Shown one piece after another: positions 10,880 through 25,150 of a DNA stretch of 64,000 nucleotides; positions within the stretch are counted from its first letter, which is position 1; the number at the start of each line of letters is the position of its first letter. Under the pieces are notes generated by a model. The model saw only the letters and a list, made by a program, of their open reading frames with translations, had not been told where the DNA came from and made no database searches. Where the stretch lies: assembly GCF_015624505.1 (NCBI RefSeq), contig NZ_CP061379.1:6076001-6140000 (forward strand). The letters are read 5' to 3'. The translations under genes were made by a program, and so were the position numbers. Source of the stretch: Bradyrhizobium commune (lineage in GTDB: Bacteria; Pseudomonadota; Alphaproteobacteria; Rhizobiales; Xanthobacteraceae).

Positions 10880-11674
10880 CTAACCATCCGCCGGCAGCCC
10901 CTGTTCGATCTCGCGAAACCGCAGCGGCGCCAGCGCCGCGGCACGCTGCCACCACTCGGCCACGCGGTCGTCGAGGGTGGTCACGCCGCGGCCCTGGCCG
11001 GGAAAGATCCGGATCTGCTGGACCGCCTCGGCCTCGAACCCTTTGCCTTTGCGCGTGATCTTGATGATTGCGCCTTCGCGGTCACGTTGCGTCAGCGGCA
11101 CCAGCAGGCGGCCGCACGGGCGGAGCGCGTCGAGCCAGAGCGGATGCGGATGCGAGAAGCCGGCATGCACGATGATGACATCGGCCGGCTCGCCGATCTC
11201 CGCGCATCCGTCGCCATTGATGACCTCGACATTGCGGTAGGCGCGAAGATAGTTCGTGGCGCGCACCGCAAGCCGCTCGTCGCATTCGATGGCAAGCACG
11301 CCGCCCTTGGGGCCAACGATTGTCGACAGGATTGCCGAGAAATAGCCGAGCCCGCAGCCGATCTGCACGACGCGCTGCTTCGGCTTGACGTCGAGCACGT
11401 CGATGACATGCGCCCACAGGCTCGGCAGCCCGGTGTCGAGCTTGCGGCGCGCGTCGATTGCGACCAGCACATTGTCATAGAGATGGACGGGATCGGCATC
11501 TGGCGTCAGCCGGTAGCCGCGCGCAGCCTCGCTCTTGATGCGCCAGGGGCCTTTGGCAAGAAAATCTTCGCGCGGGACGTCGGCAAGGGCTGCGAGCAGG
11601 CGCAGCGACGAGATCCGCTCGCGCTTGGCAATCAGCTCCACATAGCGCGCACGCGCGGCGGCGAGATCGCTCAT
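10880..11674 (-). CDS. Protein-L-isoaspartate O-methyltransferase-like SAM methyltransferase
   Basis: 264 residues with a Rossmann SAM-binding motif (VVQIGCGLGYFSAIL), an acidic strand (LAIECDE) and a preceding helix region typical of the PCMT family. PCMT repairs isoaspartyl residues, and this protein is longer than the usual 210-220 residues. Its ATG overlaps the stop of the upstream cyclase gene by 4 bases (ATGA), so the two are translationally coupled. Whether it repairs proteins or modifies another target is open. Confidence 0.8.
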   Translation of the reverse strand: MSDLAAARARYVELIAKRERISSLRLLAALADVPREDFLAKGPWRIKSEAARGYRLTPDADPVHLYDNVLVAIDARRKLDTGLPSLWAHVIDVLDVKPKQRVVQIGCGLGYFSAILSTIVGPKGGVLAIECDERLAVRATNYLRAYRNVEVINGDGCAEIGEPADVIIVHAGFSHPHPLWLDALRPCGRLLVPLTQRDREGAIIKITRKGKGFEAEAVQQIRIFPGQGRGVTTLDDRVAEWWQRAAALAPLRFREIEQGLPADG

Positions 11675-14600
11675 CTCACGGGATCGGCCTGCGGACGCGC
11701 CGGCGCGTCGCCACCGAGCTCGTTGACGAGCTGCATGGCCTGCTTCAGATCCGGCGTCAGGAACCCCTCGTTGAACTTGCCGACGATCGGCAGCAGCAGC
11801 AGGCTTGCATGCTCGCGCTTGCCGCTTTCATGCGACAGGCGCGCGAGGCTGACGGCGGTTCTGAGCTCCCAGGACAGCGCACCCTGCTTGCGCGCGGTCT
11901 CGAGCGACTGGCCGAACAGATCCTCGGCCTCCTGAACGGAGGCCGGATTGCCGTCCGACAGCGTGATCTCGCCTTGCAGGCGATAGACTTCGGCGAGGTA
12001 GGAATGATCGCCGGTGCGCCTTGCGGTCGCGAGCGCACCGTCCAGCGCGCGCAAGGCGGCGTCGCGCATGCCGACCTTGGCATAGGCCTCCGCGAGCAGG
12101 CAGCGGAACCAGCAGCCGGCGAGCCAGGAATCCATCGCCTCATATTCATCGAGGCCGAAGCGCATCTGGCTGATGCCCTCGTCGGCCTCGCCGAGCTGGC
12201 TCAGCGCCCAGCCGCGCAAGATCGCGGCCTGCTGCTTCCAGTGCAGGAAGTTGTGCTCGGTCGCGATGATCATGGCGCGATTGGCATGGTCGCGCGTGCC
12301 CTCGATATCGCGCAAGTGCTGGCAGAGATAGGCGCCGAACACCAGAGCGAAGGCGAGCGAGAATGGATGGCGGATCTTCTCCGCAAGCGCGATCGCCTGC
12401 TCGCTGTGCTGGCGCGCCGCATCGGGCCGGCCGAGGAACCACAGGAGATAACCAAGATAGGACAGCGAGACCACGCCGGGATCGGTGCCGTGGCGCTCCA
12501 TCAGGTCGGAGTGGAGATCGGGGCTGTACAGATTGATACAGCGGTGCAGATGATGCTGCGAGGCGGCGAAGCGCCCGCGATAGAGCATGGTCATCGCGAT
12601 CGAGCGATGCGCCTCGATCAGATAGCCGGTCTGCTGCGCCGGCTGCGTCCGCTCGTTCAGCCGCTCGCGCTTGGCGAACTTCAACAGCTCGACGCTGAGA
12701 TCGTGCGCACGGGTCAGATCGGCGCGGATGAAATGGCAGACCCAGAGCCCGCGCGTGGCGGCAAAGGCCTTCTCGTCGTCGTCGAGCTGCTGGCCGAGCT
12801 CGAGCGCGCGAATGTAGTTCTCCTCGACCTCCTGCACCGCGTAGCCCTTGGCGGCGATCAGCGCATTGCCGAGCGCGATGCGGATCTCGAGCTCGATCTC
12901 GTCGGCGCCCTGCATCCGCGCATTGGCCTGCACGACGCTCAAGCCGCGGCGAAGATGGCCGATCGCCTCCAGATTGGCGCCGCTCTTGGCCGCCTGCTTG
13001 CCGGCCTTGAGCCAGAAGCTCGCCGCGCCCTCGCTCTGGCCGGACTCGGTCAGATGGTGGGCGAGAAGCTCCGGCTCACGCTCGGTCTTCTCCGGATACA
13101 TCTCGGCGAGCACCTGGGCGATGCTGGCATGCAGCTTGCGCCGCTCGCTGTGCAGCAGGCTCGCATGCGCGGCGTTCTGGATCATCACATGCTTGAAGGA
13201 ATAGAGCGCGTCGGGCGGATGGCCGCGGCGCATCACCAGCCCGGCCTCCTCCAGATGATTGAGCGCTGCCTCGATCTGCTCGGCCGGCGTGTTGGCAACT
13301 GCATGCAGGGTCTCATAGGAGAATTCACGGCCGATGGTGGCGCCGATCTGCGCGATCCGCTTGAACGGACCCATCCGGTCCAGGCGAGCCATCAGCGAGT
13401 CCGTCAGCGTCGCCGGAATCGCGAGCTGCCGCCACGGGCCCGACAGCACGTAGCGCCCATGCCGCTCGGTCAAGAGATTGGATTCGAGAACCGTCTTGGT
13501 CAGCTCCTCCAGGAACAGAGGCACGCCGTCGGTCTTGACGATGATCTCCTCGACCACCTCCTTGGGCAGCTCTCTGCCCGCGACACGCTCGACCAGCGTC
13601 GCGCGCAACGGCCGGCTCAGGCGGTTCAGCACCAAAGTTGTGATGTGCGAATGCGCATTCCAGCTTGGCTGGAATTCGGAGCGCGCGGTGATGATGGCGA
13701 GGACCGGTCGGTTCTGCACCCGATCGACCAGCAGGTCGACCACTTCCCGGGAGGTCGGATCGATCCAGTGCAGATCCTCGAAGGCCATCACCAGCGGCAT
13801 CTCGCGCGCGAGGCCCAGGAAGTGGTTGACCAGCGCCGCAACGGTCGCGTCCTTTTGCTGTTGCGGCGACAGGTCGAGCGGCGGATAGCGCTCTCCGGTC
13901 GGGATCGACAGCAGCGCGGCAAACAGCGGCGTGACCTGCTCGATGTCGCCATGGGCGGCAGCGATCGCGGTCTCCAGGCTCGCCAACGACTGCGCGGATG
14001 GATCTTCGCGGTCGAGGCCGAGGGAGAATTTGAGTTGCTCGGAGAACGGATAGAACGCCGTGGACGTGTAATAGGGTGAGCACTGGAACGAGACCTGTCC
14101 GTGGCGATCGCCCGCGACACGTTCGAAGATTTCCTGGATGATGCGCGACTTGCCGATGCCGGGCTCGCCGAACTTGACCACGACCTGGCCGTCGCCGTCC
14201 TTGGCCTGCTGCCAGCGCCCCGTCAGGAGCGCGATCTCCTCCTCGCGGTTGACGAGCGGGGTCAGCCGCGTGCCCATCGCCGCGGCAAAGCGGGTTTCCA
14301 CCCGCGAGGCGCGCACCACGTGCCAGGCCTGCGCCTTTTCCGAGATGCCCTTCAGCGCATGGGCGCCGAGATTGCGGTAATCGAATTTCCCCTTCAGCAG
14401 CGATTGCGTCGAGGCGGAGATCACGACGCCGTTGGGCGGCGCCAGCGCTTGCAGGCGCGCCGCGAGATTGACGGTTTCGCCGACCGCGGAGTCGCGCTCC
14501 TCGGTGCCCTGGCCGACGAGGTCGCCGACCACGACGAGGCCGGTCGCGATCCCGATGCGGACGGCGGGCGCATGGCTGAGCGCACCGCGCGGCTCGATCG

Positions 14601-15135
14601 CACGCGCGGTGGACAGCACCCGTACGATCTCGAGCCCGGCGCGCACCGCACGTTCGGCGTCGTCCTCATGCGCGGTCGGATAGCCGAAATAGACCAGAAT
14701 GCCGTCGCCGACGAAGCGGGCGGCAAAACCTTCGTAGTGCTTGACCACGCGGACGCAGGTCTCGCGGAAGCTCGCGATCATGTCGCGCACGTCTTCGGGG
14801 TCGAACTGCGCCGACAACGAGGTGGAATCCACCATGTCGCAAAACATGGTGGTGAGCTGGCGCCGTTCGGCGCCGACCTCAGCCCGGGTTTGCGGGCGCA
14901 CCGACGCGACCGGCGCCTCCGCCGTTTCAGCCTTAAACAGCGCGGCCATCGCCCGCTGGAGTCGTTTCCGATCGCCGAGCGGCAGTCCGAGCTCGGTCAG
15001 GTCAGCCTCGGTCAGGTCCGCCATGACGTCGAGATCGAGGCGGTGCTGCGCGAACAGAGCGGTGTAGTGGCCGAGACCAATGCCTTCGAGCCAGTGCTTC
15101 AGCCCGCCTTCCGTCTCCGGCTCTTTCTCCAGCAT
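11671..15135 (-). CDS. SAM-domain / class III nucleotide cyclase / ATPase / TPR signalling protein
   Basis: 1154 residues in four parts. A sterile-alpha-motif domain spans about 10-68. A class III adenylate/guanylate cyclase domain spans about 92-275, with metal-binding Asp100 (FCDMVDST) and Asp144 (FVGDGILVYFG). A STAND-like ATPase follows with Walker A GEPGIGKS at 323-330 and a FEDLHWID Walker B region. A long helical TPR C-terminus follows from about 700. Both catalytic metal aspartates are kept, so activity is plausible. No membrane segment is seen, so it is probably cytoplasmic. It heads a two-gene unit with the PCMT-like gene and is divergent from the peptide synthetase across 136 bases. 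Confidence 0.9.
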   Translation of the reverse strand: MLEKEPETEGGLKHWLEGIGLGHYTALFAQHRLDLDVMADLTEADLTELGLPLGDRKRLQRAMAALFKAETAEAPVASVRPQTRAEVGAERRQLTTMFCDMVDSTSLSAQFDPEDVRDMIASFRETCVRVVKHYEGFAARFVGDGILVYFGYPTAHEDDAERAVRAGLEIVRVLSTARAIEPRGALSHAPAVRIGIATGLVVVGDLVGQGTEERDSAVGETVNLAARLQALAPPNGVVISASTQSLLKGKFDYRNLGAHALKGISEKAQAWHVVRASRVETRFAAAMGTRLTPLVNREEEIALLTGRWQQAKDGDGQVVVKFGEPGIGKSRIIQEIFERVAGDRHGQVSFQCSPYYTSTAFYPFSEQLKFSLGLDREDPSAQSLASLETAIAAAHGDIEQVTPLFAALLSIPTGERYPPLDLSPQQQKDATVAALVNHFLGLAREMPLVMAFEDLHWIDPTSREVVDLLVDRVQNRPVLAIITARSEFQPSWNAHSHITTLVLNRLSRPLRATLVERVAGRELPKEVVEEIIVKTDGVPLFLEELTKTVLESNLLTERHGRYVLSGPWRQLAIPATLTDSLMARLDRMGPFKRIAQIGATIGREFSYETLHAVANTPAEQIEAALNHLEEAGLVMRRGHPPDALYSFKHVMIQNAAHASLLHSERRKLHASIAQVLAEMYPEKTEREPELLAHHLTESGQSEGAASFWLKAGKQAAKSGANLEAIGHLRRGLSVVQANARMQGADEIELEIRIALGNALIAAKGYAVQEVEENYIRALELGQQLDDDEKAFAATRGLWVCHFIRADLTRAHDLSVELLKFAKRERLNERTQPAQQTGYLIEAHRSIAMTMLYRGRFAASQHHLHRCINLYSPDLHSDLMERHGTDPGVVSLSYLGYLLWFLGRPDAARQHSEQAIALAEKIRHPFSLAFALVFGAYLCQHLRDIEGTRDHANRAMIIATEHNFLHWKQQAAILRGWALSQLGEADEGISQMRFGLDEYEAMDSWLAGCWFRCLLAEAYAKVGMRDAALRALDGALATARRTGDHSYLAEVYRLQGEITLSDGNPASVQEAEDLFGQSLETARKQGALSWELRTAVSLARLSHESGKREHASLLLLPIVGKFNEGFLTPDLKQAMQLVNELGGDAPARPQADPVR

Positions 15136-15271: not shown

Positions 15272-18200
15272 ATGGCGTTGTCGGAACTTGCATCCGGAGC
15301 GGGAGAGGAAAAGGCCGGCTCGGGTCCGGAGACGAAAGTCTTCGCACATATCGGCGGCCTTCTCGACCTCTATGCACAAAAGACGCCGACGGCGCCAGCT
15401 TTGCTCGCCCCCGGCCGTCCGCCCCTGAGCTATGCCGGGCTCGGCGCCAGAACCGTGCATCTGGTCCGTACGCTACGCGGGCTCGGCATCGGGCCCACCG
15501 ACCGGATTGCGGTTGCGCTGCCGCGCGGCGCCGACAGCGCGCTGGCGCTGATCGCGGTCGCCTCGGCCTGCGCCTGCATCCCCGTCAATCCCGACCTGAC
15601 GGCCGACGAGCTGCAACGCTATTTCAGCGAATTGAAGCTGACGGCGCTCGTCACCCGGGCCGACCTGAACTCGCCGAGCCGCGATGTCGCGAGAGCGCTG
15701 GATATCGCGGTGATCGACTTCGTGCCGGGACCGGAGAGCGATCTCGGCGGGTGCGAATTCAAGGGGCCGACGATCGGGCTGGCCTGTACGAGCGGCGTCG
15801 CGCGCGGCGAGGATGACGCCTTCATCCTCCTGACGTCGGGCACGGCGGCACGGCCGAAAATGGTGCCGTTGACGCACCGCAATGTATGCCTCTCCGCCTA
15901 CAACGCCGGCCACGTGCTGTCGCTCAATTCGCACGACCGTCTCCTCAATGCACTGCCACTGTTTCATGCCCATGGGCTGATCTCCGGCCTGTTGACGGCG
16001 CTGGCAGCCGGCTCCAGCGTGATCGTGACCGATGGTTTCGACGCGCCGTCCTTCTTCTCCTGGATGCGGGAGCTGCAACCGACCTGGTACACGGCCGTGC
16101 CGACCATTCATCGTGCGCTGCTGACGGCTGCGGAAGCCAACCCGGACCGCATCCGCTCGTCATCGCTGCGTGTGATCCGCTCGGCCTCGGCCTCGCTCGC
16201 GCCGGCGATCCTCAGCGGGCTGGAGACGACCTTCGGCGTTCCCGTGCTCGAGACCTATGGCATGACGGAAGCGGCCTCGCAGATCGCAGCCAATCCGTTC
16301 GAGCTGCGCAAGATCGGCTCGGTCGGCCGCGCCGCGGGCCCCGAGATCGCGATCATGGACGAGACAGGCCGCGAGCTGGCGCCGGGCGATCACGGCGAGA
16401 TCATGCTGCGCGGACCGAACATGAGCCGCGGATATTATAATGACGAGGCGGCGACGCAGTCCGCATTCCGGAACGGCTGGTTCCGGACCGGCGATCTCGG
16501 CTATCTCGATGCCGACGGCTATCTCTTCATCGTCGGCCGCATCAAGGACGTCATCAACCGCGGCGGACAGAAGGTGTCGCCGCTGGAGGTGGAAGAGGTC
16601 CTGTTGAGCCATCCGGCGGTATTGGAGGCCGGCGTCTTTGCCGTTCCGCACCCAAAACTCGGCGAGAACGTCGCCGCCGTCGTGGTGCTGCGAGCGAGTT
16701 CCGAGGCGGGCTCGGACCAGTTGCGCCAGTTCGCGCGCAAGCGGCTTGCCGCCTATAAGGTGCCGAGCCTGATCCGCAGCGTCGCGGCATTGCCGAAAGG
16801 CGCAAGCGGCAAGGTGAAGCGCAACGCGCTGGCCGGGCTGATTGCGGCAACAGATGATGGCGCCGACGCCCAGTTGCCGCGCACGACGCTGGAAACCCAG
16901 CTCGCGGAGATCTGGGCCAATCTGCTGGAGCTGCCGCAGGTCGGCGTCGATCAGGACGTCTTTGCGCTCGGTGCGGACTCGCTCGCCGCAACACAGATGC
17001 GCTCCCGTCTGCGCGAGCGCTTCAATGTCGATTTCTCGTTCGAGGACATCTTTGATTGCGCCACGGTCGCCGCGCTCGCGGCGCGGCTGGAGACCGCTGC
17101 GGCCTATCGTGCGGCGGCGCTGCCGACGTGGCGTCAGGCGACCTCCGAGGGTGATGCGCCGCTGTCGTTCCAGCAGCAGCGGATGTATCTGCTCTCGCGG
17201 CTCGATCCGACCCGCTACAACTATAATGTCGTCGAAGTCGCGCTGCTCAGGGGCCTGGTCGACGTCGCCGCGCTTCAGTCAAGCTTGGCTGCAATCTGCG
17301 CGCGCCATGAGGCGCTGCGCTCGGTCTTCGTCGAAAGTGCGGGCGAACCGATCCAACAGGTCCTTCTGCCGCCGCCGCGGCTGGCGCGGGTCAAGCTCAA
17401 GCCTTGTCCTGCGGACAAGCGGGCCGCGATCGTCAGGCGCGAAGCGCTCAAGCTCGCGCAATACCCGTTCGACCTGGCCAGCGAAGTGCCGGTGAAAGTC
17501 ACCCTGTTCTCGTTCGACAAATCGAATCATGCACTGGTGGTCAACGTCCATCACCTCGTCACCGATGGCTGGTCGCAGCGGCTGTTCTGGGAGGAGCTGG
17601 CAGCCGAATATTCCGCTGCGCGCAAGGCAAACGCCAAAGCGCTGCCGTCGTCCACTTTCCAATATCGCGATTTCGCCCGCTGGCAGCAGAGCTGGGCGCA
17701 GACACCAGCGGCCAACGAGCAGCTCGGCTACTGGCGGACGCAGCTCGACGGCGTCACCACGCTGCCGCTGCGGACCGACCGGCCGAGGCCGGAGATCTGG
17801 AGCGGCCAGGGCGCCCGTCACTATTTCGAGTTCTCCAAGACCCTGTCGGCCGATGTGAGGGTGCTGAGCCAGGACCAGGGCGTCACCCCGTTCATGACAC
17901 TGCTTGCGCTGTTCCAGTGCCTACTGTTCCGCCACACCGGGCATGAGGATGTCGCAACCGGCTCGCTGATTGCGAACCGCAACCAGATCGAGAGCGAGCG
18001 CCTGATCGGGCTGTTCGCCAACACGCTGGTCCTGCGCAACGATTTCGGCGGCGACCCGACCTTCGGCGAAATGCTGCGGCGGGTGCGCCAAGTCACGCTC
18101 GATGCCTATCGCAATCAGGATCTTCCGATCGAGGAGGTTTTGCGTGCATTGCAGATCGTGCGACGGAGCGACGGCAATCCGCTGTTCCGGATCATGTTCA

Positions 18201-21200
18201 TCCTCCAGAACGCATCGATCGAGGCGGCGCGCTTTCCCGGCCTGTCGACGCGCCGGCTGGAGATCGACCCGAAGGTCGCACGTTTCGATATCACGCTCGA
18301 GCTGGTCGAGGCCGAGGGCCGCTTCACCGGCTTCTTCGAATACGCCACCGATTTGTTCGACGCGGTGACGATCGCTGGCATGGCGGATCAGTTCAAGACC
18401 CTGCTCAAGGCGGTCATCGCCAATCCGGAGCAGCGCATCTCGCGCCTGCCGCTCCTGACCGCGGCCGAGCGCCGGCAGTTGCTGGCGTGCGGCCAGGGAC
18501 GATCCGCCAATTTCGCGAGCCGCGGCAATCTATGCGAAAGGTTCGAACGCCAGGCGAAGAAGACGCCGAACGCGATCGCGGTGTCGGACGGGGCCGGATC
18601 GCTGAGCTATCGCGAGCTGGCGCGACGCAGCCAGGCGATCGCGCGATGGCTCGCGCGCGAGGATGTCGGTACGGAAACGGTGGTCGCGCTGCTTGCGGAT
18701 CGCGGAACCGATTTGCTCGCGGCAATGATCGCAGTGCAGCGTGTCGGTGCGGCGTTCCTGAACGTCGACCCCGAGCAGCCGCCGGCACGGCTCGCGACCA
18801 TCCTCGGATCAAGCTGCGCCCGCGTGCTGCTGACGGCGCGTGCGCAGTCGGCCATGGTCGATGCGCTGCTTGAGCCGCTGGTTGAGCGTATCCTGGTGGC
18901 CGAGCTCGATGACACGATTGCGCCCGGATCGACCAAGCCCGTCCGCGCGGCGCGGCGCGCGGCCTCAAGCCTTGCCTATCTCATCTACACGTCCGGCTCT
19001 TCCGGCGCGCCGAAGGGCGTCATGATCGAGCAACGCGGGCTGTCGAACCATCTGGCGTCGCTCGTCGCCGAGCTCGGCCTCACGCACAATGACGTGGTCG
19101 CGCAAACGGCGCCTCAGAGCTTTGTCATCTCGGTCTGGCAGTTCCTCGCCGGACCGATGGTCGGCGCGCGCGTCCATGTCTGTGCCAATGCGATCGCGCA
19201 GGATCCGATCCTGCTTGCTCGGGAGATCGAGCGCGAGGGCATCACCGTGCTCGAAATCGTCCCCTCGCTGCTCCGCGTGATCCTCGAACGGATCGACGAG
19301 GCGCCGATGCTGCGCGCCTTCTCCACACTGCGCGTGCTGATCTCGACCGGCGAGCCGCTGCCGGTCGACCTCTGCCGCGCCTGGTTCGCCCGTTGTCCAA
19401 AAGTACCGCTGATCAATGCCTATGGCGCCTCGGAATGTTCCGACGATGTTTCCCTGCACCGGCTGACCAAGGCGCCGGCCGAGACGACGAACAACGTTCC
19501 GGTCGGCGCGGCGCTGCCCAACACCCAGCTCTACGTGCTCGATCCCAATCTGGAACCGCAGCCGGTCGGCGTGGTCGGCGAGCTCTGCATCGGCGGCGCC
19601 GGAATCGGCCGCGGCTATGTCAACGATCCCGCACAGAGCCGGCAGCGCTTCATCCCCGATCCCTTCGCGCGCCAGGCAGGCAGCCGGCTGTACCGCACCG
19701 GGGACCTCGCCCGCCGCCGCGCCGACGGGACGATCGAATGCCTCGGCCGCGCCGATCACCAGGTCAAGGTCCGCGGCTACCGTGTCGAGCTGAAGGAGAT
19801 CGAGACTGCGCTGACCGATCACGCGAGCGTGCGAGCCGGCATCGTCGAGCCGCGCCGCGACGCCAATGGCGATGTCCGGCTGATCGCGCATGTCGTCGCC
19901 AGGACCGGCAGTCAGACCAGCGCCAGCGAACTGCGCGACTTCCTCAAGGGCCGGTTGCCGGGTTACGCAATTCCGTCGGCGTTCCTGTTCCTGGACCAGC
20001 TCCCGCTCAATGCCCACGGCAAGATCGATCGCTCCGCGCTGCTGGCGCCTGCGCAACAGGAAGCCGCCGGAGCGGAGCCTGCCGTGCCGGCACGCCGCTT
20101 CACCGAAAAGGTCCTGTCCGATATCTGGACCGACCTGCTGAAGGTCGAGAGCCTCGGTGTCACCGACAATTTCTTCGATCTCGGCGGCCATTCGCTGCTG
20201 GCGGGCCAGGCCATGGCGCGCGTCGCCCGCGCGCTCGGCGTGTCGCTGCCGATCAAGACCATCTTCGAGGCGCCGACGGTCGAAGAGCTTGCCCGAAGGG
20301 TCGATGAGGCCGTGGTAGCGCAACCGCGCAGGCCGCCGACAAGCATGCCGCGGCTGGCCGATAGCGGGCCTGCCACGCTCTCGATCGCGCAGGACCAGAT
20401 GATGCGGATCGAGCAGAGCCTGCCCGACCTGCCGCTGTTCAACCTGCCCTTCGCCTTCCAACTCCATGGCCCAATTGATCCACGCACGCTGGCGCAGGCC
20501 ACCGACGACGTCGTACGCCGCCACGAATCGTTGCGGACGGCGTTCGGCTGGAGCGGTGGCGAGCCGGTCAGCCGGATCGCCGCGCCCAGCACGCTCGGCC
20601 CGGTCCTGACCGTCGAGACCATTGGCGACGGACGGCCCCACAACAACAAGCGGCGCAAAGTGCTCGAACTCAGGAAGATCGAGCTCCTGATCAAGCAGGA
20701 GACCTATACACCGGTCGACTCGACCCGGGCACCGTTGCTGCGGGCACGGCTGCTGCGGCTTCACGCCGAGGATCACATCCTGCTGCTGACGCTGCATCAT
20801 GCCATTGCCGACGGCTGGTCGATCGGCGTTTTGTTCGAGGAATTGTCCAACCGTTATGCCGCGTTGGCCGGGCGCCCGTCCGTGCCGCTGCCCAAAATGC
20901 CGCTCGCCTTCTCCGACGTCGCCCGCTGGCAGCGCTGGTGGTGCGGCACCGATTCGGCGCGGCGGCAGGCCGCCGAGTGGACGGATGCCTTGCGTGACGC
21001 AACGCCTGTGTTCGACGGCCAAGCGAGCCCCGGCGCCTCCACCGGCCATCATCCGGTGAACCTGGAGCGTGAGCTGATCGCGCGGCTCACCGCTTTTGCC
21101 AGCCACCACAACGGCACGCCGTTCATGTGTCTTCTCACCGGCCTGAAGGCGCTGCTGCTGGCACGGACCGGACGCACGGACATTTCCGTCGCAACCGCCA

Positions 21201-21718
21201 TGGCCAATCGCAGCCAGCCGGACACCGAGCGGATCGTCGGCCCGTTCGAGAACACGGTGATCGTCCGCAGCCGAATCACGCCGGAGCTGTCGTTCGCGCA
21301 AGCCTTGGGCCGGGTGCGCCAGAGCGTGCTCGACGCGCATGCGCGGCAGGAGCTGCCGTTCAACATCCTGGCCGACCATCTGGAACAGGAAGGTATCGAT
21401 CCTGCCTCGCTGCTCCAGGTCTATTTCACGCTGCAAAATCCGCTGCGCCAGCCACTCGATCTGCCTGACGTCGCGGTGCGATCGGTCGGCAATGTCGCGC
21501 GCGAGGGCCAGCCGGTGCTGCCGATCGACCAGACCTGGCTGTCCCTGATGCTGAAGGAGCGCCCGACCGGGATCACCGGTTCCTGCAACTACAAGGGTGA
21601 GCTGCTGGACGGTGACATGGTCGGCGCGTGGATGGAGGACCTCGTTGCGCTGCTGGCGGCGGCCGTTGCCCAGCCCCACACGCCGCTCGGCCGGTTGCTG
21701 GATCGCAGAGCGGCATGA
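15272..21718 (+). CDS. Nonribosomal peptide synthetase, A-PCP-C-A-PCP-C, no thioesterase
   Basis: 2148 residues. A1 (about 25-525) resembles acyl-CoA ligases of the oxalyl-CoA synthetase type (LFHAHGLISG, WYTAVPTIH), suggesting a carboxylic-acid starter. PCP1 carries Ser570. C1 (about 630-1060) has HHLVTDG at 760-766. A2 (about 1080-1595) has TSGSSGAPKG, NAYGASE and Lys1584 in NAHGKIDR. PCP2 carries Ser1641. C2 (about 1700-2140) has HHAIADG at 1842-1848 and ends the protein; no thioesterase or reductase follows. The A2 pocket lacks the usual Asp235 equivalent (Val1285). The ATG has AAAAGGG only one base upstream, so an in-frame TTG at 15278 may be the true start. Phosphopantetheinyl transferase and monooxygenase genes follow. 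Confidence 0.95.
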   Translation: MALSELASGAGEEKAGSGPETKVFAHIGGLLDLYAQKTPTAPALLAPGRPPLSYAGLGARTVHLVRTLRGLGIGPTDRIAVALPRGADSALALIAVASACACIPVNPDLTADELQRYFSELKLTALVTRADLNSPSRDVARALDIAVIDFVPGPESDLGGCEFKGPTIGLACTSGVARGEDDAFILLTSGTAARPKMVPLTHRNVCLSAYNAGHVLSLNSHDRLLNALPLFHAHGLISGLLTALAAGSSVIVTDGFDAPSFFSWMRELQPTWYTAVPTIHRALLTAAEANPDRIRSSSLRVIRSASASLAPAILSGLETTFGVPVLETYGMTEAASQIAANPFELRKIGSVGRAAGPEIAIMDETGRELAPGDHGEIMLRGPNMSRGYYNDEAATQSAFRNGWFRTGDLGYLDADGYLFIVGRIKDVINRGGQKVSPLEVEEVLLSHPAVLEAGVFAVPHPKLGENVAAVVVLRASSEAGSDQLRQFARKRLAAYKVPSLIRSVAALPKGASGKVKRNALAGLIAATDDGADAQLPRTTLETQLAEIWANLLELPQVGVDQDVFALGADSLAATQMRSRLRERFNVDFSFEDIFDCATVAALAARLETAAAYRAAALPTWRQATSEGDAPLSFQQQRMYLLSRLDPTRYNYNVVEVALLRGLVDVAALQSSLAAICARHEALRSVFVESAGEPIQQVLLPPPRLARVKLKPCPADKRAAIVRREALKLAQYPFDLASEVPVKVTLFSFDKSNHALVVNVHHLVTDGWSQRLFWEELAAEYSAARKANAKALPSSTFQYRDFARWQQSWAQTPAANEQLGYWRTQLDGVTTLPLRTDRPRPEIWSGQGARHYFEFSKTLSADVRVLSQDQGVTPFMTLLALFQCLLFRHTGHEDVATGSLIANRNQIESERLIGLFANTLVLRNDFGGDPTFGEMLRRVRQVTLDAYRNQDLPIEEVLRALQIVRRSDGNPLFRIMFILQNASIEAARFPGLSTRRLEIDPKVARFDITLELVEAEGRFTGFFEYATDLFDAVTIAGMADQFKTLLKAVIANPEQRISRLPLLTAAERRQLLACGQGRSANFASRGNLCERFERQAKKTPNAIAVSDGAGSLSYRELARRSQAIARWLAREDVGTETVVALLADRGTDLLAAMIAVQRVGAAFLNVDPEQPPARLATILGSSCARVLLTARAQSAMVDALLEPLVERILVAELDDTIAPGSTKPVRAARRAASSLAYLIYTSGSSGAPKGVMIEQRGLSNHLASLVAELGLTHNDVVAQTAPQSFVISVWQFLAGPMVGARVHVCANAIAQDPILLAREIEREGITVLEIVPSLLRVILERIDEAPMLRAFSTLRVLISTGEPLPVDLCRAWFARCPKVPLINAYGASECSDDVSLHRLTKAPAETTNNVPVGAALPNTQLYVLDPNLEPQPVGVVGELCIGGAGIGRGYVNDPAQSRQRFIPDPFARQAGSRLYRTGDLARRRADGTIECLGRADHQVKVRGYRVELKEIETALTDHASVRAGIVEPRRDANGDVRLIAHVVARTGSQTSASELRDFLKGRLPGYAIPSAFLFLDQLPLNAHGKIDRSALLAPAQQEAAGAEPAVPARRFTEKVLSDIWTDLLKVESLGVTDNFFDLGGHSLLAGQAMARVARALGVSLPIKTIFEAPTVEELARRVDEAVVAQPRRPPTSMPRLADSGPATLSIAQDQMMRIEQSLPDLPLFNLPFAFQLHGPIDPRTLAQATDDVVRRHESLRTAFGWSGGEPVSRIAAPSTLGPVLTVETIGDGRPHNNKRRKVLELRKIELLIKQETYTPVDSTRAPLLRARLLRLHAEDHILLLTLHHAIADGWSIGVLFEELSNRYAALAGRPSVPLPKMPLAFSDVARWQRWWCGTDSARRQAAEWTDALRDATPVFDGQASPGASTGHHPVNLERELIARLTAFASHHNGTPFMCLLTGLKALLLARTGRTDISVATAMANRSQPDTERIVGPFENTVIVRSRITPELSFAQALGRVRQSVLDAHARQELPFNILADHLEQEGIDPASLLQVYFTLQNPLRQPLDLPDVAVRSVGNVAREGQPVLPIDQTWLSLMLKERPTGITGSCNYKGELLDGDMVGAWMEDLVALLAAAVAQPHTPLGRLLDRRAA

Positions 21719-21769
21719 CCGGCCGTTGGTCCGGGCCGAACACGGGTTCACCCGCCAAAGCTGTGAATG

Positions 21770-21787
21770 ATCAAGTTGCATCTTGAT
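21770..21787. promoter_or_regulatory. Inverted repeat upstream of the small lysine-rich gene
   Basis: ATCAAG (21770-21775) and CTTGAT (21782-21787) are perfect 6-bp arms around TTGCAT. The site lies between the synthetase stop and the small gene at 21860, in DNA that is more AT-rich than its surroundings. It is a candidate operator for a separate promoter of the small gene; no matching site was found elsewhere in the cluster. Confidence 0.3.
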
Positions 21788-21859
21788 TATTTGGCGCTTG
21801 CCGCGCAAGATTATTCCCGCGTTTTGATTTGGACGATTATTTTCAACCGGGGGAGTGTT

Positions 21860-22030
21860 ATGGGTTTCATCAAATTTGCTAAGGGCACCTCGCTGAGCGA
21901 CAAGGACCGCAAGGCCCTGCAAAAGCTGCTCACCGACGAGAAGAAGAAGCTTCAGGCCGCGCTGAAAGAGGTCGACGCCACGCTTATGATCGTGGGCGGC
22001 TCGAAGAAGAAGGCCAAGAAGAAAAAGTAA
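21860..22030 (+). CDS. Small lysine-rich hypothetical protein in the NRPS cluster
   Basis: 56 residues starting MGFIKFAKGTSLSDKD, with a GGGGGAG ribosome site about 5 bases upstream of the ATG. The open frame extends back to 21767, but that leader has no ribosome site. A charged amphipathic helical middle (DRKALQKLLTDEKKKLQAAL) is followed by a short hydrophobic strand (TLMIVGG) and a tail of eight residues, seven of them lysine. No family is recognised. It lies 141 bases after the synthetase and 258 before the phosphopantetheinyl transferase. It could be a nucleic-acid- or carrier-binding accessory, or an unrelated small gene. Confidence 0.7.
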   Translation: MGFIKFAKGTSLSDKDRKALQKLLTDEKKKLQAALKEVDATLMIVGGSKKKAKKKK

Positions 22031-22062
22031 GACTCGTCGGCCGGGACGCCGCACGAATCTTC

Positions 22063-22105
22063 CGACTTGGTTTTTCGGACCGGGGTTTTTCGACTTGGTT
22101 TTTCG
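22063..22105. repeat. Two copies of a 15-bp direct repeat with 28-bp period
   Basis: CGACTTGGTTTTTCG occurs at 22063-22077 and again at 22091-22105; a related GTTTTTCG-like stretch lies between the copies, and a degenerate CGAGTTGGGG follows near 22126. The run sits in the gap between the lysine-rich gene and the phosphopantetheinyl transferase gene. Its T tracts could act in termination or be a slippage expansion. Confidence 0.6.
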
Positions 22106-22288
22106 AAACTGGGCCGCTCGCTTGTCGAGTTGGGGTCTCGCACAAGCTTGCGCCTGTAAACCGGCCAGCAATCGACAAGAATTTGCCCGGGTGGACCGCT
22201 AGAAGCGGTCCGCTCAGTTGCTTTCTGGTCGGTTGATTCTTCCGTCAGCGCCGGATTTGGCCTCCGCCTGACGCCATGGGCCCAATTG

Positions 22289-23020
22289 ATGGCAGACGAC
22301 GGAATTGAACTGTTTGTCGGACTGATCGAGAGCATCGACACGCCGGGCGCAATCGATGCATGCCGGCGCTTGCTCTCGACCGACGAACGCGCGCGCGCCG
22401 ATCGCTTCATGTTCGAGCGGCATCAGCGACAGTATATCTTCGCGCATGCCATGTTGCGCCTCGCGCTCTCGCACGCAGCCCCCGATGTCGCGCCCGCCGA
22501 CTGGTCGTTTTCGGCCGGCCGTCACGGGCGGCCCTTTATCGCGGCGCCCGCAACCGCGACAATGCTGCATTTCAGCCTGTCCCATGCCGACGGCTGCGTG
22601 GCCTGCGTTATATCCCGGCACGAGGCCGTCGGCGTCGACGTCGAGACCGTGTCGCGGCGTGTCGCGCCGCTGTCCACCGCGCTTCGCTTCTTTGCGCCGG
22701 AAGAGGTCGAGACCTTGCGCGCACTGCCGGATCCGGCTGCGATCGAGCGCTTCTTCGACTATTGGACGCTCAAGGAAGCCTATCTGAAGGCCAGGGGTTT
22801 TGGGCTCAATCTGCCGCTCGACGCATTTGCGATGCAGGTGTCGCGGGAGGCGATCGAGATCAGCTTCAAGCCAGATATCGCCGACGATCCGGCCGGATGG
22901 CGCTTCTCGCTGTGCTCGCCGTCGCCGTCACACCGGCTGGCGATCGCCGACGGCTCCCGCGCGGCCGGCGGGCTTCCCATCATTCGCAACGCTTGGCCGC
23001 TCCAGGAAGCAGCCGAATGA
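22289..23020 (+). CDS. 4'-phosphopantetheinyl transferase, Sfp type
   Basis: About 243 residues. It transfers phosphopantetheine from CoA to the active serine of carrier domains, here most likely Ser570 and Ser1641 of the synthetase. The family motifs are in order: GRPFI, LHFSLSHADG, VGVDVE (metal-binding Asp and Glu) and FDYWTLKEAYLKARG. An in-frame TTG three bases upstream is an alternative start. The monooxygenase gene downstream overlaps its stop by 4 bases, so the two are translationally coupled. Confidence 0.92.
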   Translation: MADDGIELFVGLIESIDTPGAIDACRRLLSTDERARADRFMFERHQRQYIFAHAMLRLALSHAAPDVAPADWSFSAGRHGRPFIAAPATATMLHFSLSHADGCVACVISRHEAVGVDVETVSRRVAPLSTALRFFAPEEVETLRALPDPAAIERFFDYWTLKEAYLKARGFGLNLPLDAFAMQVSREAIEISFKPDIADDPAGWRFSLCSPSPSHRLAIADGSRAAGGLPIIRNAWPLQEAAE

Positions 23021-23997
23021 CGCCGGCGCGGCTGCGCGTCTTTCCCGCGGTTTCGCGCAACCGCGATCCCAAGACATATGTCGGCGAGCTGATGCGGGTG
23101 GCAGAGTTCGCCGACCGCAACGGCTTCGAGGGCATTTTGCTGTTCGAGGGCAATGACGTGTTCGTCGAGCCCTGGGCGATGGCCCAGCACATCATGGCGG
23201 AGACGACGCGATCCTCACCGTTGATCGCCGTCAACCCGGTCTACATGCATCCGTTCACGGCGGCGAAGTTCGTCTCCTCCTTTGCGCAGCTCTACGGCCG
23301 CAAGGTCTATCTCAACATGATCACGGGGACCGCGGTCAGCGACTTGCAGGGGTTGGGCGACAATCAGTCGCATGCGGACCGCTACGTTCGACTGGGCGAG
23401 TTTGTTGCGCTCGTGCGCCAGCTGCTCTCAAGCCCGCGGCCGGTGAATTTTGCGGGCCAATTCTATCGCGCAAGCAATTTGCAGCTGCGGCCGCGCCTTG
23501 CGGCCGAAGTGATGCCGGAGTTTTTGATCGCCGGACAGTCGGAGGCGGCGCAGCGGGTGGCGGAGGAGACCGGCTGCATCAAGATGCAGATGCTGCCGCC
23601 CGATCTCGATCGCGGCCTCAATGCGCCCGGAATGAATTTTGGCATCTTCGCGCGCGAAAGCGCCGTTGAGGCGCGGCAGGCGGCAAAGGCGCGCTTCCGC
23701 GACAATCCCGACGATCGCGAGCTGCTTGCGCTCACCGTGGAGAACTCGGACTCCGTCTGGAAGCGGCGGCTGTATGAAGGGCAAAGCGGCGAGCTTGCGG
23801 ACAACGGCTACTGGCTGTTGCCATACCTCACCTTCCAGGCCGACTGCCCCTATCTCGTCGGCGGCTATGCCGAGATCGGCGCGAGGCTGAGGGATTTTGC
23901 GGCGAAAGGCCTCACCACGATCATGCTCGACGTGGTCGCCGATGAAACCGAGATGCAGCACGTCTGCAAGGCGCTCAAGGCGAGCGGGATGTTTTGA
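23017..23997 (+). CDS. LLM-class flavin-dependent oxidoreductase (luciferase-like monooxygenase)
   Basis: 326 residues with the bacterial-luciferase/alkanesulfonate-monooxygenase pattern: a VAEFADRNGFEGILLFEG opening, NPVYMHPFTAAKFVSSFAQLYGRKVYLN, and a HADRYVRLGEFVALVRQLL region. Members use FMNH2 and O2 to oxygenate small substrates. The ATG overlaps the stop of the phosphopantetheinyl transferase (ATGA), so the enzyme is likely part of the same biosynthetic unit and may modify the peptide or its starter acid. The frame is open upstream, but only because that stretch is antiphase to the transferase gene. Confidence 0.88.
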   Translation: MTPARLRVFPAVSRNRDPKTYVGELMRVAEFADRNGFEGILLFEGNDVFVEPWAMAQHIMAETTRSSPLIAVNPVYMHPFTAAKFVSSFAQLYGRKVYLNMITGTAVSDLQGLGDNQSHADRYVRLGEFVALVRQLLSSPRPVNFAGQFYRASNLQLRPRLAAEVMPEFLIAGQSEAAQRVAEETGCIKMQMLPPDLDRGLNAPGMNFGIFARESAVEARQAAKARFRDNPDDRELLALTVENSDSVWKRRLYEGQSGELADNGYWLLPYLTFQADCPYLVGGYAEIGARLRDFAAKGLTTIMLDVVADETEMQHVCKALKASGMF

Positions 23998-24022
23998 ATC
24001 TTTGCGAGCGGTGCTCTCTCCG

Positions 24023-24104
24023 CGTCATGGCCGGGCTTGTCCCGGCCATCCACGCCTTACCACATCGAAGAACGTGGATGCCCGGGACAAGCCCGGGCAT
24101 GACG
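24023..24104. repeat. Inverted pair of palindromic intergenic repeats
   Basis: A 32-base unit (24023-24054) beginning CGTCATGGCCGGGCTTGTCC is present inverted at 24073-24104 with near-perfect complementarity and an 18-base spacer. Each arm also holds its own GGCCGGG/CCCGGCC-type dyad. It lies between the convergent monooxygenase and deacetylase genes, where the large hairpin could end transcription from both sides. I recall this sequence as a common dispersed element in Bradyrhizobium, not verified. Confidence 0.75.
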
Positions 24105-24124
24105 ACCCTCCCTAGACGCGAATC

Positions 24125-25150
24125 TCACCGCGCCTCTTCAAATCCCGCGAGCACCGAGGTCAGGTTCGCGCCCAAAATATCCGAGAGATAGCCGCCTTCC
24201 TGCACGAACATGGTCGGCAGGCCCATCTTCGCGATCGCTTGGCCGATGCGGCGGAAGCCGGGCGTGGTGACGGCGAGGCCTTTCAGCGGATCGTGCTCGG
24301 ATGCGTCGAGGCCGAGCGCGATCACGAGCGCGCCGGGCGCAAAGGACTCGATCGCCTTGCGCGCGACGTCCATCGCCTGGATGTAGCCGTCATCGCCGGT
24401 GCCGATGGCGAGGGGAATGTTGAGATTGGTGCCGAGGCCAGCGCCCTCGCCGCGCTCATGGGCGTAGCCCCACACGAAGGGATAGTACGCAGCCGGATCG
24501 GCGTGGATCGAGATCGTGTAGACATCGGGCCGTGCGTAGAAAATGCCCTGCGTGCCGTTGCCGTGATGGACGTCAACATCGAGGATCACCACGCGCTCGT
24601 GCTTGAGCCGCAGATGCGCCGCCGCGATCGCGCTGTTGTTGAGGAAGCAGAAGCCGCCGGCCATGTCGCGATAGGCGTGATGGCCGGGCGGACGGCAGAG
24701 CGCGTAGACCGCGTCCTCGCCGTCCATCGCCATCTGCGCCGCGGTAACTGCAACGTCCGTTGCCGCGCAAGCCGCGGCCCAGGTGCCCGGACCGATCGGT
24801 GCTGCGGTGTCGGCCGTGTGCCAGCCGAGCTTTCCGACGATATGCGTCGGATAGGTCGCGGCATGACGCACGGGATGGATGTTGCCGATCATCTCCGGAC
24901 CGGAATCGCCGAGCGCGGTCCAAGCGTCCCAGGCCTCGCTGAGGAACGCGAGATATTCGGGGCTGTGAATCCGCGCTCGCGGGCCCTGCCCGAATTTGAT
25001 CGGCTCGACCAGTTGATGCTTGCCGTCCTTCAAGCCCTTGAGCAGGCGGTCGGCGCGCTCGGGCTGCTCAGTCGTGCGCTTGACGACACCGCGAACCAGG
25101 AAGAATTGCGGATCATGGCTGCGGTGCAGTTCGGTATGGACGGCCTTCAC
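24125..25150 (-). CDS. Histone-deacetylase-fold amidohydrolase (acetylpolyamine amidohydrolase-like)
   Basis: 341 residues from a GTG preceded by GGAGTG. The arginase/deacetylase zinc motifs are complete: the PPGHHA histidine pair, metal-binding DVDVHHGNGT, and the third metal Asp in GLDASEHDPL. A QEGGYL segment near the C-terminus is typical. The sequence style (MKAVHTELHRSHDPQFFLVRG) matches acetylpolyamine amidohydrolases, which free acetylated putrescine or related amines. The later amine-use genes in the window are compatible with that, but they are not adjacent. Confidence 0.85.
   Translation of the reverse strand: MKAVHTELHRSHDPQFFLVRGVVKRTTEQPERADRLLKGLKDGKHQLVEPIKFGQGPRARIHSPEYLAFLSEAWDAWTALGDSGPEMIGNIHPVRHAATYPTHIVGKLGWHTADTAAPIGPGTWAAACAATDVAVTAAQMAMDGEDAVYALCRPPGHHAYRDMAGGFCFLNNSAIAAAHLRLKHERVVILDVDVHHGNGTQGIFYARPDVYTISIHADPAAYYPFVWGYAHERGEGAGLGTNLNIPLAIGTGDDGYIQAMDVARKAIESFAPGALVIALGLDASEHDPLKGLAVTTPGFRRIGQAIAKMGLPTMFVQEGGYLSDILGANLTSVLAGFEEAR

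Follow-up and report, generated by a model that had tools for sequence, protein, structure and literature searches.

How does a nonribosomal peptide synthetase (NRPS) that stops after a condensation (C) domain let go of its product? Chain release from synthetases of this kind is poorly settled. The question is raised by a locus of Bradyrhizobium commune (contig NZ_CP061379.1, positions 6,076,001 to 6,140,000), whose 7.62-Mb genome is a single contig; this stretch of 64,000 nucleotides is called the window, and coordinates are given within it. The locus encodes an NRPS composed of adenylation (A), peptidyl carrier protein (PCP) and C domains, with a small gene directly behind it:

15272-21718, plus strand: NRPS of 2148 amino acids (aa), A1-PCP1-C1-A2-PCP2-C2, without release domain (open reading frame list and Pfam)
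15329-16861, plus strand: A1, of the acyl-CoA-ligase type (closest solved structures are oxalyl-CoA synthetases)
16898-17089, plus strand: PCP1 (Pfam PP-binding)
17147-18484, plus strand: C1 (Pfam Condensation)
18512-20071, plus strand: A2, with Val in place of Asp235 (alignments)
about 20108-20305, plus strand: PCP2 (placed by eye on a GGHSL motif)
20339-21715, plus strand: C2, terminal condensation domain, separate clade (Pfam and tree)
20795-20815, plus strand: HHAIADG, the active-site motif of C2 (alignment)
21860-22030, plus strand: small gene, 56 aa, predicted single helix and Lys-rich tail (comparison of relatives)

We propose that this NRPS, apparently restricted to Bradyrhizobium, would release its product as an amide formed at a specialised C2 with the help of a small partner protein, a reading to which we give a probability of roughly 50% from the comparison of genes and genomes. 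The small protein may assist this release as an accessory, or may itself be the amine that accepts the chain. Pfam scanning of the 2148-aa open reading frame found two each of AMP-binding, PP-binding and Condensation stretches, in agreement with the domain order and coordinates of a preliminary description of the locus. As also claimed there, no thioesterase (TE) or reductase domain was found by Pfam in the NRPS, and nothing follows the last C domain. The NRPS has 3525 database matches at E <= 1e-100; the 120 listed, the window's own included, are 82-100% identical to it across 97-100% of the length, and every organism name given among them is Bradyrhizobium. Of the first 16 relative loci fetched, 13 keep the gene order of the cluster. 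Such close relatives together with the recurring gene order indicate that the architecture did not arise by chance. As a separate observation, another NRPS region of this genome (L104, G000:C1:960000-979900) shows condensation and thioesterase matches.

The active-site motif HHxxxDG is kept in the C2 of all eight aligned two-module rows, as HHAIADG in the window. In a tree of 52 C domains, which contained no characterised amine-using C domain, the 15 terminal C domains formed one clade with support of 100/100 and a stem of 1.31 changes per column, so that the phylogenetic inspection suggested in the preliminary description places C2 in a clade of its own. The ten C1 domains formed a separate clade (support 100/99), and the C domains of the TE-type clusters described below grouped with those of other bacteria. 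A terminal-C profile at 1e-85 matched 7 of 297 genomes of the order, all of them Bradyrhizobium. When public genomes were scanned for C loci, the best 80 loci were kept and the distance from the C domain to the stop codon was checked in 32 of them: the domain ends 8-25 aa before the stop in eight Bradyrhizobium loci, and all eight have the small gene. The small-gene profile was run on all of the best 80 loci and matched only those eight. Also among the 80, a Microcoleus locus (L140) has a C domain ending 42 aa before the stop, is without the small gene and falls outside the terminal-C clade, and in L165 the C domain runs into the contig end. These comparisons suggest that the terminal C domain represents a deep clade seen only in Bradyrhizobium. 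A 'special condensation domain' among the C2 matches, 8z0q, was dismissed as evidence because its motif is RPWGIFDG.

The small gene lies in the 570-base gap between the NRPS gene and a phosphopantetheinyl transferase (PPTase) gene. Its 56 codons are conserved, GGGGGAG stands a few bases 5' of its ATG, and its product reads MGFIKF...KKKAKKKK. It is present in all 13 canonical relative loci, where the alignment shows many silent changes and the changes in tail length are all in frame. The ratio of nonsynonymous to synonymous substitution rates (dN/dS) ranges from 0.11 to 0.71. Because it is below 1 in all 34 pairs and the tail indels keep the frame, the small gene is coding and under purifying selection. 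No Pfam family matches the small protein at E <= 0.001. AlphaFold2, run on 13 aligned rows, predicts one helix over residues 14-53 with weak ends (mean predicted local distance difference test score 74), and the most conserved columns lie in this helix and not in the tail. A profile search of the protein database, which scored only the 7982 candidates sharing most words, found 202 relatives; no Pfam domain was found in the 120 listed, among which all organism names shown are Bradyrhizobium. The last 16 residues carry a net charge of +2 to +11 in 70 distinct sequences of the family, four of which are remnants. Canonical two-module forms have 6-10 Lys in this segment; small proteins of the single-module loci described below often end in ...KVSKRR, those of L091 and L097 have two Lys in the last 16 residues, and that of L101 is without a long tail. 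Every one of these 70 sequences has a basic tail, yet only part of the family is Lys-rich.

Two stretches flanking the small gene deserve mention. Between the NRPS stop codon and the small gene (21740-21860), blocks around CAAGTTGCATCTTGATTATT and CGCGCAAGATTATT are well conserved among 14 sequences and are perhaps a promoter or operator. Between the small gene and the PPTase gene there is a 12-pair stem with a modest T tail (22189-22215); terminator-like sites in 21500-24200 number four, against 2.6 expected.

The distribution of C2, of the small family and of a neighbouring luciferase-like flavin monooxygenase (LLM) was counted for each over 265 genomes of the genus. C2 relatives (E <= 1e-75, 44-100% identity) occur in 127 of them and the small family, detected by profile, in 131. 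All 127 terminal-C genomes carry the small family (Fisher p 5e-72, ignoring kinship), and profile matches were found in four of the 138 genomes without a terminal C domain. In three of these four (G340, G356 and G357, the second known from the genus-wide searches alone and not from a fetched locus) the match spans about half of the small-gene model and is a remnant, and in G029 it is the tail of an NRPS (24 bits). A single-sequence search adds remnants in G319 and G211, so that some trace of the family exists in 6 of the 138.

The genes surrounding the pair allowed its fate to be followed when parts of the cluster are lost. In the window these are:

22289-23020, plus strand: Sfp-type PPTase (Pfam)
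23017-23997, plus strand: LLM, SsuD-like (Pfam)
11671-15135, minus strand: SAM - class III nucleotide cyclase - AAA_16 - TPR protein, divergent neighbour (Pfam)
10880-11674, minus strand: PCMT-fold methyltransferase, overlapping the cyclase gene (conserved neighbour)
24125-25150: HDAC-fold gene, 89-97% identical in relatives (Pfam)

For the loss analysis 20 loci were fetched, picked for a small-gene match and no LLM match. Sixteen retain both the NRPS and the small gene (in L077 the NRPS appears as two adjoining matches) and 19 retain the PPTase. The other four (L070, L071, L074 and L075) have no NRPS; in three of them the small gene breaks off at about codon 29, in the fourth it is frameshifted, and all four still carry the PPTase gene. 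The small gene therefore decays with the NRPS. As the genome contains three ACPS-family genes, that of the window included, and the PPTase is kept in these four loci, it is not dedicated to this NRPS, as had been supposed. The preliminary description had also coupled the PPTase and monooxygenase genes downstream of the NRPS: their 4-base overlap is indeed present, but the small gene lies between the NRPS and the PPTase. The monooxygenase cannot be kept as a fixed part of the cluster either. An LLM at 84% identity or more is found in 94 genomes, all within the 127 terminal-C genomes; six of the remaining terminal-C genomes have one at 62-72% and 27 have none above 60% (counted by hand from match lists). 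Because of these 27 the LLM is dispensable, and a role as core tailoring step is ruled out. More distant LLM relatives, at 35-36% identity, stand near adenylation-domain genes in L036, L037 and L095, in Bradyrhizobium and another genus. The HDAC-fold gene was considered as a lysine deacylase of the system and ruled out, being kept in all four NRPS-less loci; it is missing from the stretch of the canonical L027 and unmatched in those of the divergent L081-L084, L072 and L073.

The cluster also has a divergent side, overlooked earlier, in which the cyclase and PCMT-fold genes adjoin the NRPS in 13 of the 13 canonical loci. To judge from this neighbourhood, the cyclase-TPR protein is probably a regulator of the system. 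TIGR03903 (TOMM system kinase/cyclase fusion protein) matches its cyclase-AAA-TPR part over about 1000 positions, but the score, 545.5 bits, falls short of the 705.75-bit cut-off, the alignment begins at position 269 of the profile, and no kinase domain was found. PADLOC gave weak PycC matches to the cyclase and a weak mad2 match to the PCMT-fold protein, which led nowhere.

Other architectures show how far the pairing of NRPS and small gene extends. Eleven single-module A-PCP-C loci encode NRPSs of about 1080-1110 aa at other genomic sites; identity to the corresponding domain of the window is 54-58% for A1 and 43-47% for the terminal C. A small-family gene adjoins the NRPS in all 11 loci, in L101 as a 48-aa gene (30.9 bits) on the opposite strand. 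The stretches fetched for these loci measure up to 16 kb, and each of the 11 contains a cyclase match (Pfam-checked in four). In genome G274 about 1.9 Mb separate the NRPS from a weakly matching small-family gene (26 bits), which is grouped with cyclase and PCMT-fold genes. In L101, G274 and the single-module loci the tie between terminal-C NRPS and small family thus survives rearrangement. Four TE-type clusters (L035, L078, L079 and L080), which look like one lineage, have an A1-PCP-C-A-PCP part about 61% and an LLM 73-74% identical to those of the window. Their first NRPS stops after PCP2 and not after C2. In L035, the sole TE-type cluster so checked with Pfam, the NRPS protein that follows is C-A-PCP-TE; L080 runs off its stretch. 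Neither a separate small gene nor a SAM-cyclase-AAA-TPR gene was found in the fetched stretch of these clusters. Their first NRPS ends in a helical, basic segment weakly similar to the small protein (13-19 bits, filters off), a fusion that favours the carrier end as the contact of the small protein. The A3 code of L035 reads D-I-L-Q-C-?-V-I-W-K, which resembles a glycine code.

Second copies of the small gene were found in eight genomes (L189-L196), in each case beside a flavin monooxygenase gene of 500-550 aa (split in L191). Seven of the eight also adjoin a SAM-cyclase-AAA-TPR gene and the eighth is at a contig end. No NRPS was found in the fetched stretches around these copies, and all eight genomes carry a terminal-C NRPS elsewhere. 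Ten pairwise comparisons, covering five of the eight copies, put the monooxygenase beside the second copies at 68-73% identity to the NRPS-adjacent one of L096 and L085. Of the seven cyclases two were compared, and they share about 70% identity with the L096 cyclase. These copies favour an additional tie of the small protein to the cyclase and the monooxygenase.

Several observations weigh against release at C2 with the help of the small protein. The genome counts are not independent, the genomes being related. Every terminal-C locus examined also has A1-PCP, and the partner may be A1 or PCP instead of C2; since both occur in every terminal-C form examined, co-occurrence cannot separate these contacts. 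The single-module C domains are without the second His of HHxxxDG and have HDIIIDG in the six aligned (L097, L098 and L100-L103, of the 11 loci), a motif that appears conserved, not decayed. No small gene was found in the two stretches fetched around the terminal-C NRPS of G274. A small-like segment persists in the TE-type clusters, which have no C2, and the second copies make the neighbouring cyclase or monooxygenase a candidate partner too; together the two weaken the idea that the small gene is tied to C2 only.

What the synthetase would assemble can be narrowed from its A domains. The closest solved relatives of A1 are the oxalyl-CoA synthetases 6qjz and 5ie0 (E about 1e-110), which bears out the earlier view of A1 as an oxalyl/acyl-CoA-ligase-like domain and makes a short acyl or dicarboxyl group the likely starter. 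Plant enzymes of this type (AAE3/Pcs60) can be aligned to almost all of A1; unlike them, A1 stands at the start of an NRPS and would presumably pass its acyl group to a carrier protein. The A2 code is V-I-W-E-I-T-A-D-D-K in the window and V-I-W-E/Q-I-T-A-D-D-K in all 14 two-module rows (the window, 11 terminal-C relatives and two TE-type), the residues being read from alignments and their Stachelhaus positions given in PheA numbering. Asp235 is the residue that holds the alpha-amino group. Its absence from A2 suggests that the substrate is probably not an ordinary alpha-amino acid, and the N-acylated amino acid previously suggested as product becomes doubtful. In the mechanism that we propose, A1 would load the starter on PCP1, A2 would load an unusual residue of this kind on PCP2, and C1 would couple the two groups. 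C2 would then hand the chain from PCP2 to an amine, so that no thioesterase would be needed. The small protein would act in trans by binding at the carrier or C end, as a docking or accessory subunit holding the chain or the amine in position.

The preliminary description had C2 releasing the product by condensation with a free amine or with an acceptor supplied by another protein. The intact HHAIADG agrees with condensation at C2, and the small gene fits the supplied acceptor; taken as the whole explanation, acceptance by the small protein is in our view improbable. C2 would in that case acylate Lys side chains of the tail (or the N-terminus), the NRPS modifying a ribosomal peptide. The position of the gene directly behind the terminal C domain and the presence of the family in every terminal-C genome speak for it, as do the basic tail, with its 6-10 Lys in canonical two-module forms, and the neighbouring genes scanned with Pfam, among which no other acceptor or thioesterase was recognised. 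As with precursors of ribosomally synthesised and post-translationally modified peptides, a gene-encoded peptide stands here beside its supposed modifying enzyme, a likeness by adjacency only. However, the tail is not always Lys-rich (the KVSKRR ends, L091 and L097, and L101), conservation is highest in the helix, and a fused copy in the TE-type clusters would be odd for a substrate. We hold the corresponding product, an acyl or acyl-aminoacyl chain fixed on Lys of the 56-residue protein as a ribosomal-nonribosomal hybrid, with flavin monooxygenases as optional tailoring enzymes and the cyclase as regulator, to be doubtful as well.

C2 could instead release the chain onto a small free amine such as putrescine, another polyamine or an amino acid, the small protein belonging to a regulatory set with the cyclase-TPR protein, although we would not expect this to be the case. 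The second copies beside a cyclase gene without NRPS, in seven of the seven loci not cut by a contig end, would suit such a set, and so would the small gene of G274 and the cyclase match in all single-module loci. Against it, L070 has a cyclase gene matching over its full length with the NRPS gone and the small gene cut short, and the TE-type clusters carry the fused segment without such a cyclase in the fetched stretch. Class III cyclases are also many in Bradyrhizobium, and some of the proximity may be chance. The chemistry itself is known, release onto a free amine by a C domain being described in the available part of one report (PMC10587159). It is quite unlikely that the arrangement is ordinary and that release occurs by hydrolysis, through a remote thioesterase or slowly by C2. 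Six PF00975 matches over the cut-off exist elsewhere in the genome, but the nearest is about 0.9 Mb from the NRPS. As to a nearby thioesterase, which had been named as a check, there is no PF00975 match within about 95 kb and the nearest is below the cut-off, other hydrolase families not having been searched genome-wide. C2 moreover keeps HHxxxDG in a long-conserved clade, which is not expected of a dead or idle domain.

Release at C2 assisted by the small protein would have partial parallels among known systems. MbtH-like proteins, of about 60-70 residues, are likewise small and encoded with an NRPS; unlike them, the small protein has no Pfam match and is predicted to form one helix with a basic tail. 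In the glidonin synthetase, as far as the available text of the report goes, C13 follows the last carrier to be loaded and, in place of a thioesterase, frees the chain as an amide of putrescine; it has putrescine-binding Ser, Asp and Glu residues (PMC10587159). The same chemistry is proposed here from genes, with the difference that C2 is the end of its protein, whereas C13 is followed by a partial A domain, a T domain and TE-like domains (PMC10587159). Kj12C of the rhabdopeptide/xenortide system, again according to the available part of the paper, is a stand-alone terminal C domain that transfers the chain to a free amine, and docking elements of a few dozen residues matter in it (PMC6195595). 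Kj12C stands as a protein of its own and carries a docking domain at its N-terminus (PMC6195595), whereas C2 shares a polypeptide with PCP2 and it is the helical element that has its own gene. The available parts of these reports describe no small partner protein for the glidonin or rhabdopeptide systems; here a small-family gene accompanies C2. No description of the cluster or of its product was found in the literature searched on Bradyrhizobium NRPSs, terminal-C release and Lys-rich ribosomal peptides with NRPSs, in line with the earlier remark that the arrangement is not a recognised pathway. The accessible text on Bradyrhizobium NRPSs names malleobactin-like clusters and blr2108 (PMC12815270, PMC8632152, PMC4926349).

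Amine release by a terminal C domain is thus already known, and the new element is the small-protein family beside such an NRPS. This unannotated family accompanies the terminal-C clade in all 127 genomes that carry C2, in a cluster that is common in Bradyrhizobium, a genus of soil and root nodules. The minimal form, an A-PCP-C protein of about 1080-1110 aa with a protein of about 60 residues, is a compact and testable system. Should the small protein be the acceptor, NRPSs could modify ribosomal proteins; should it be an accessory subunit, it would be a new kind of NRPS helper.

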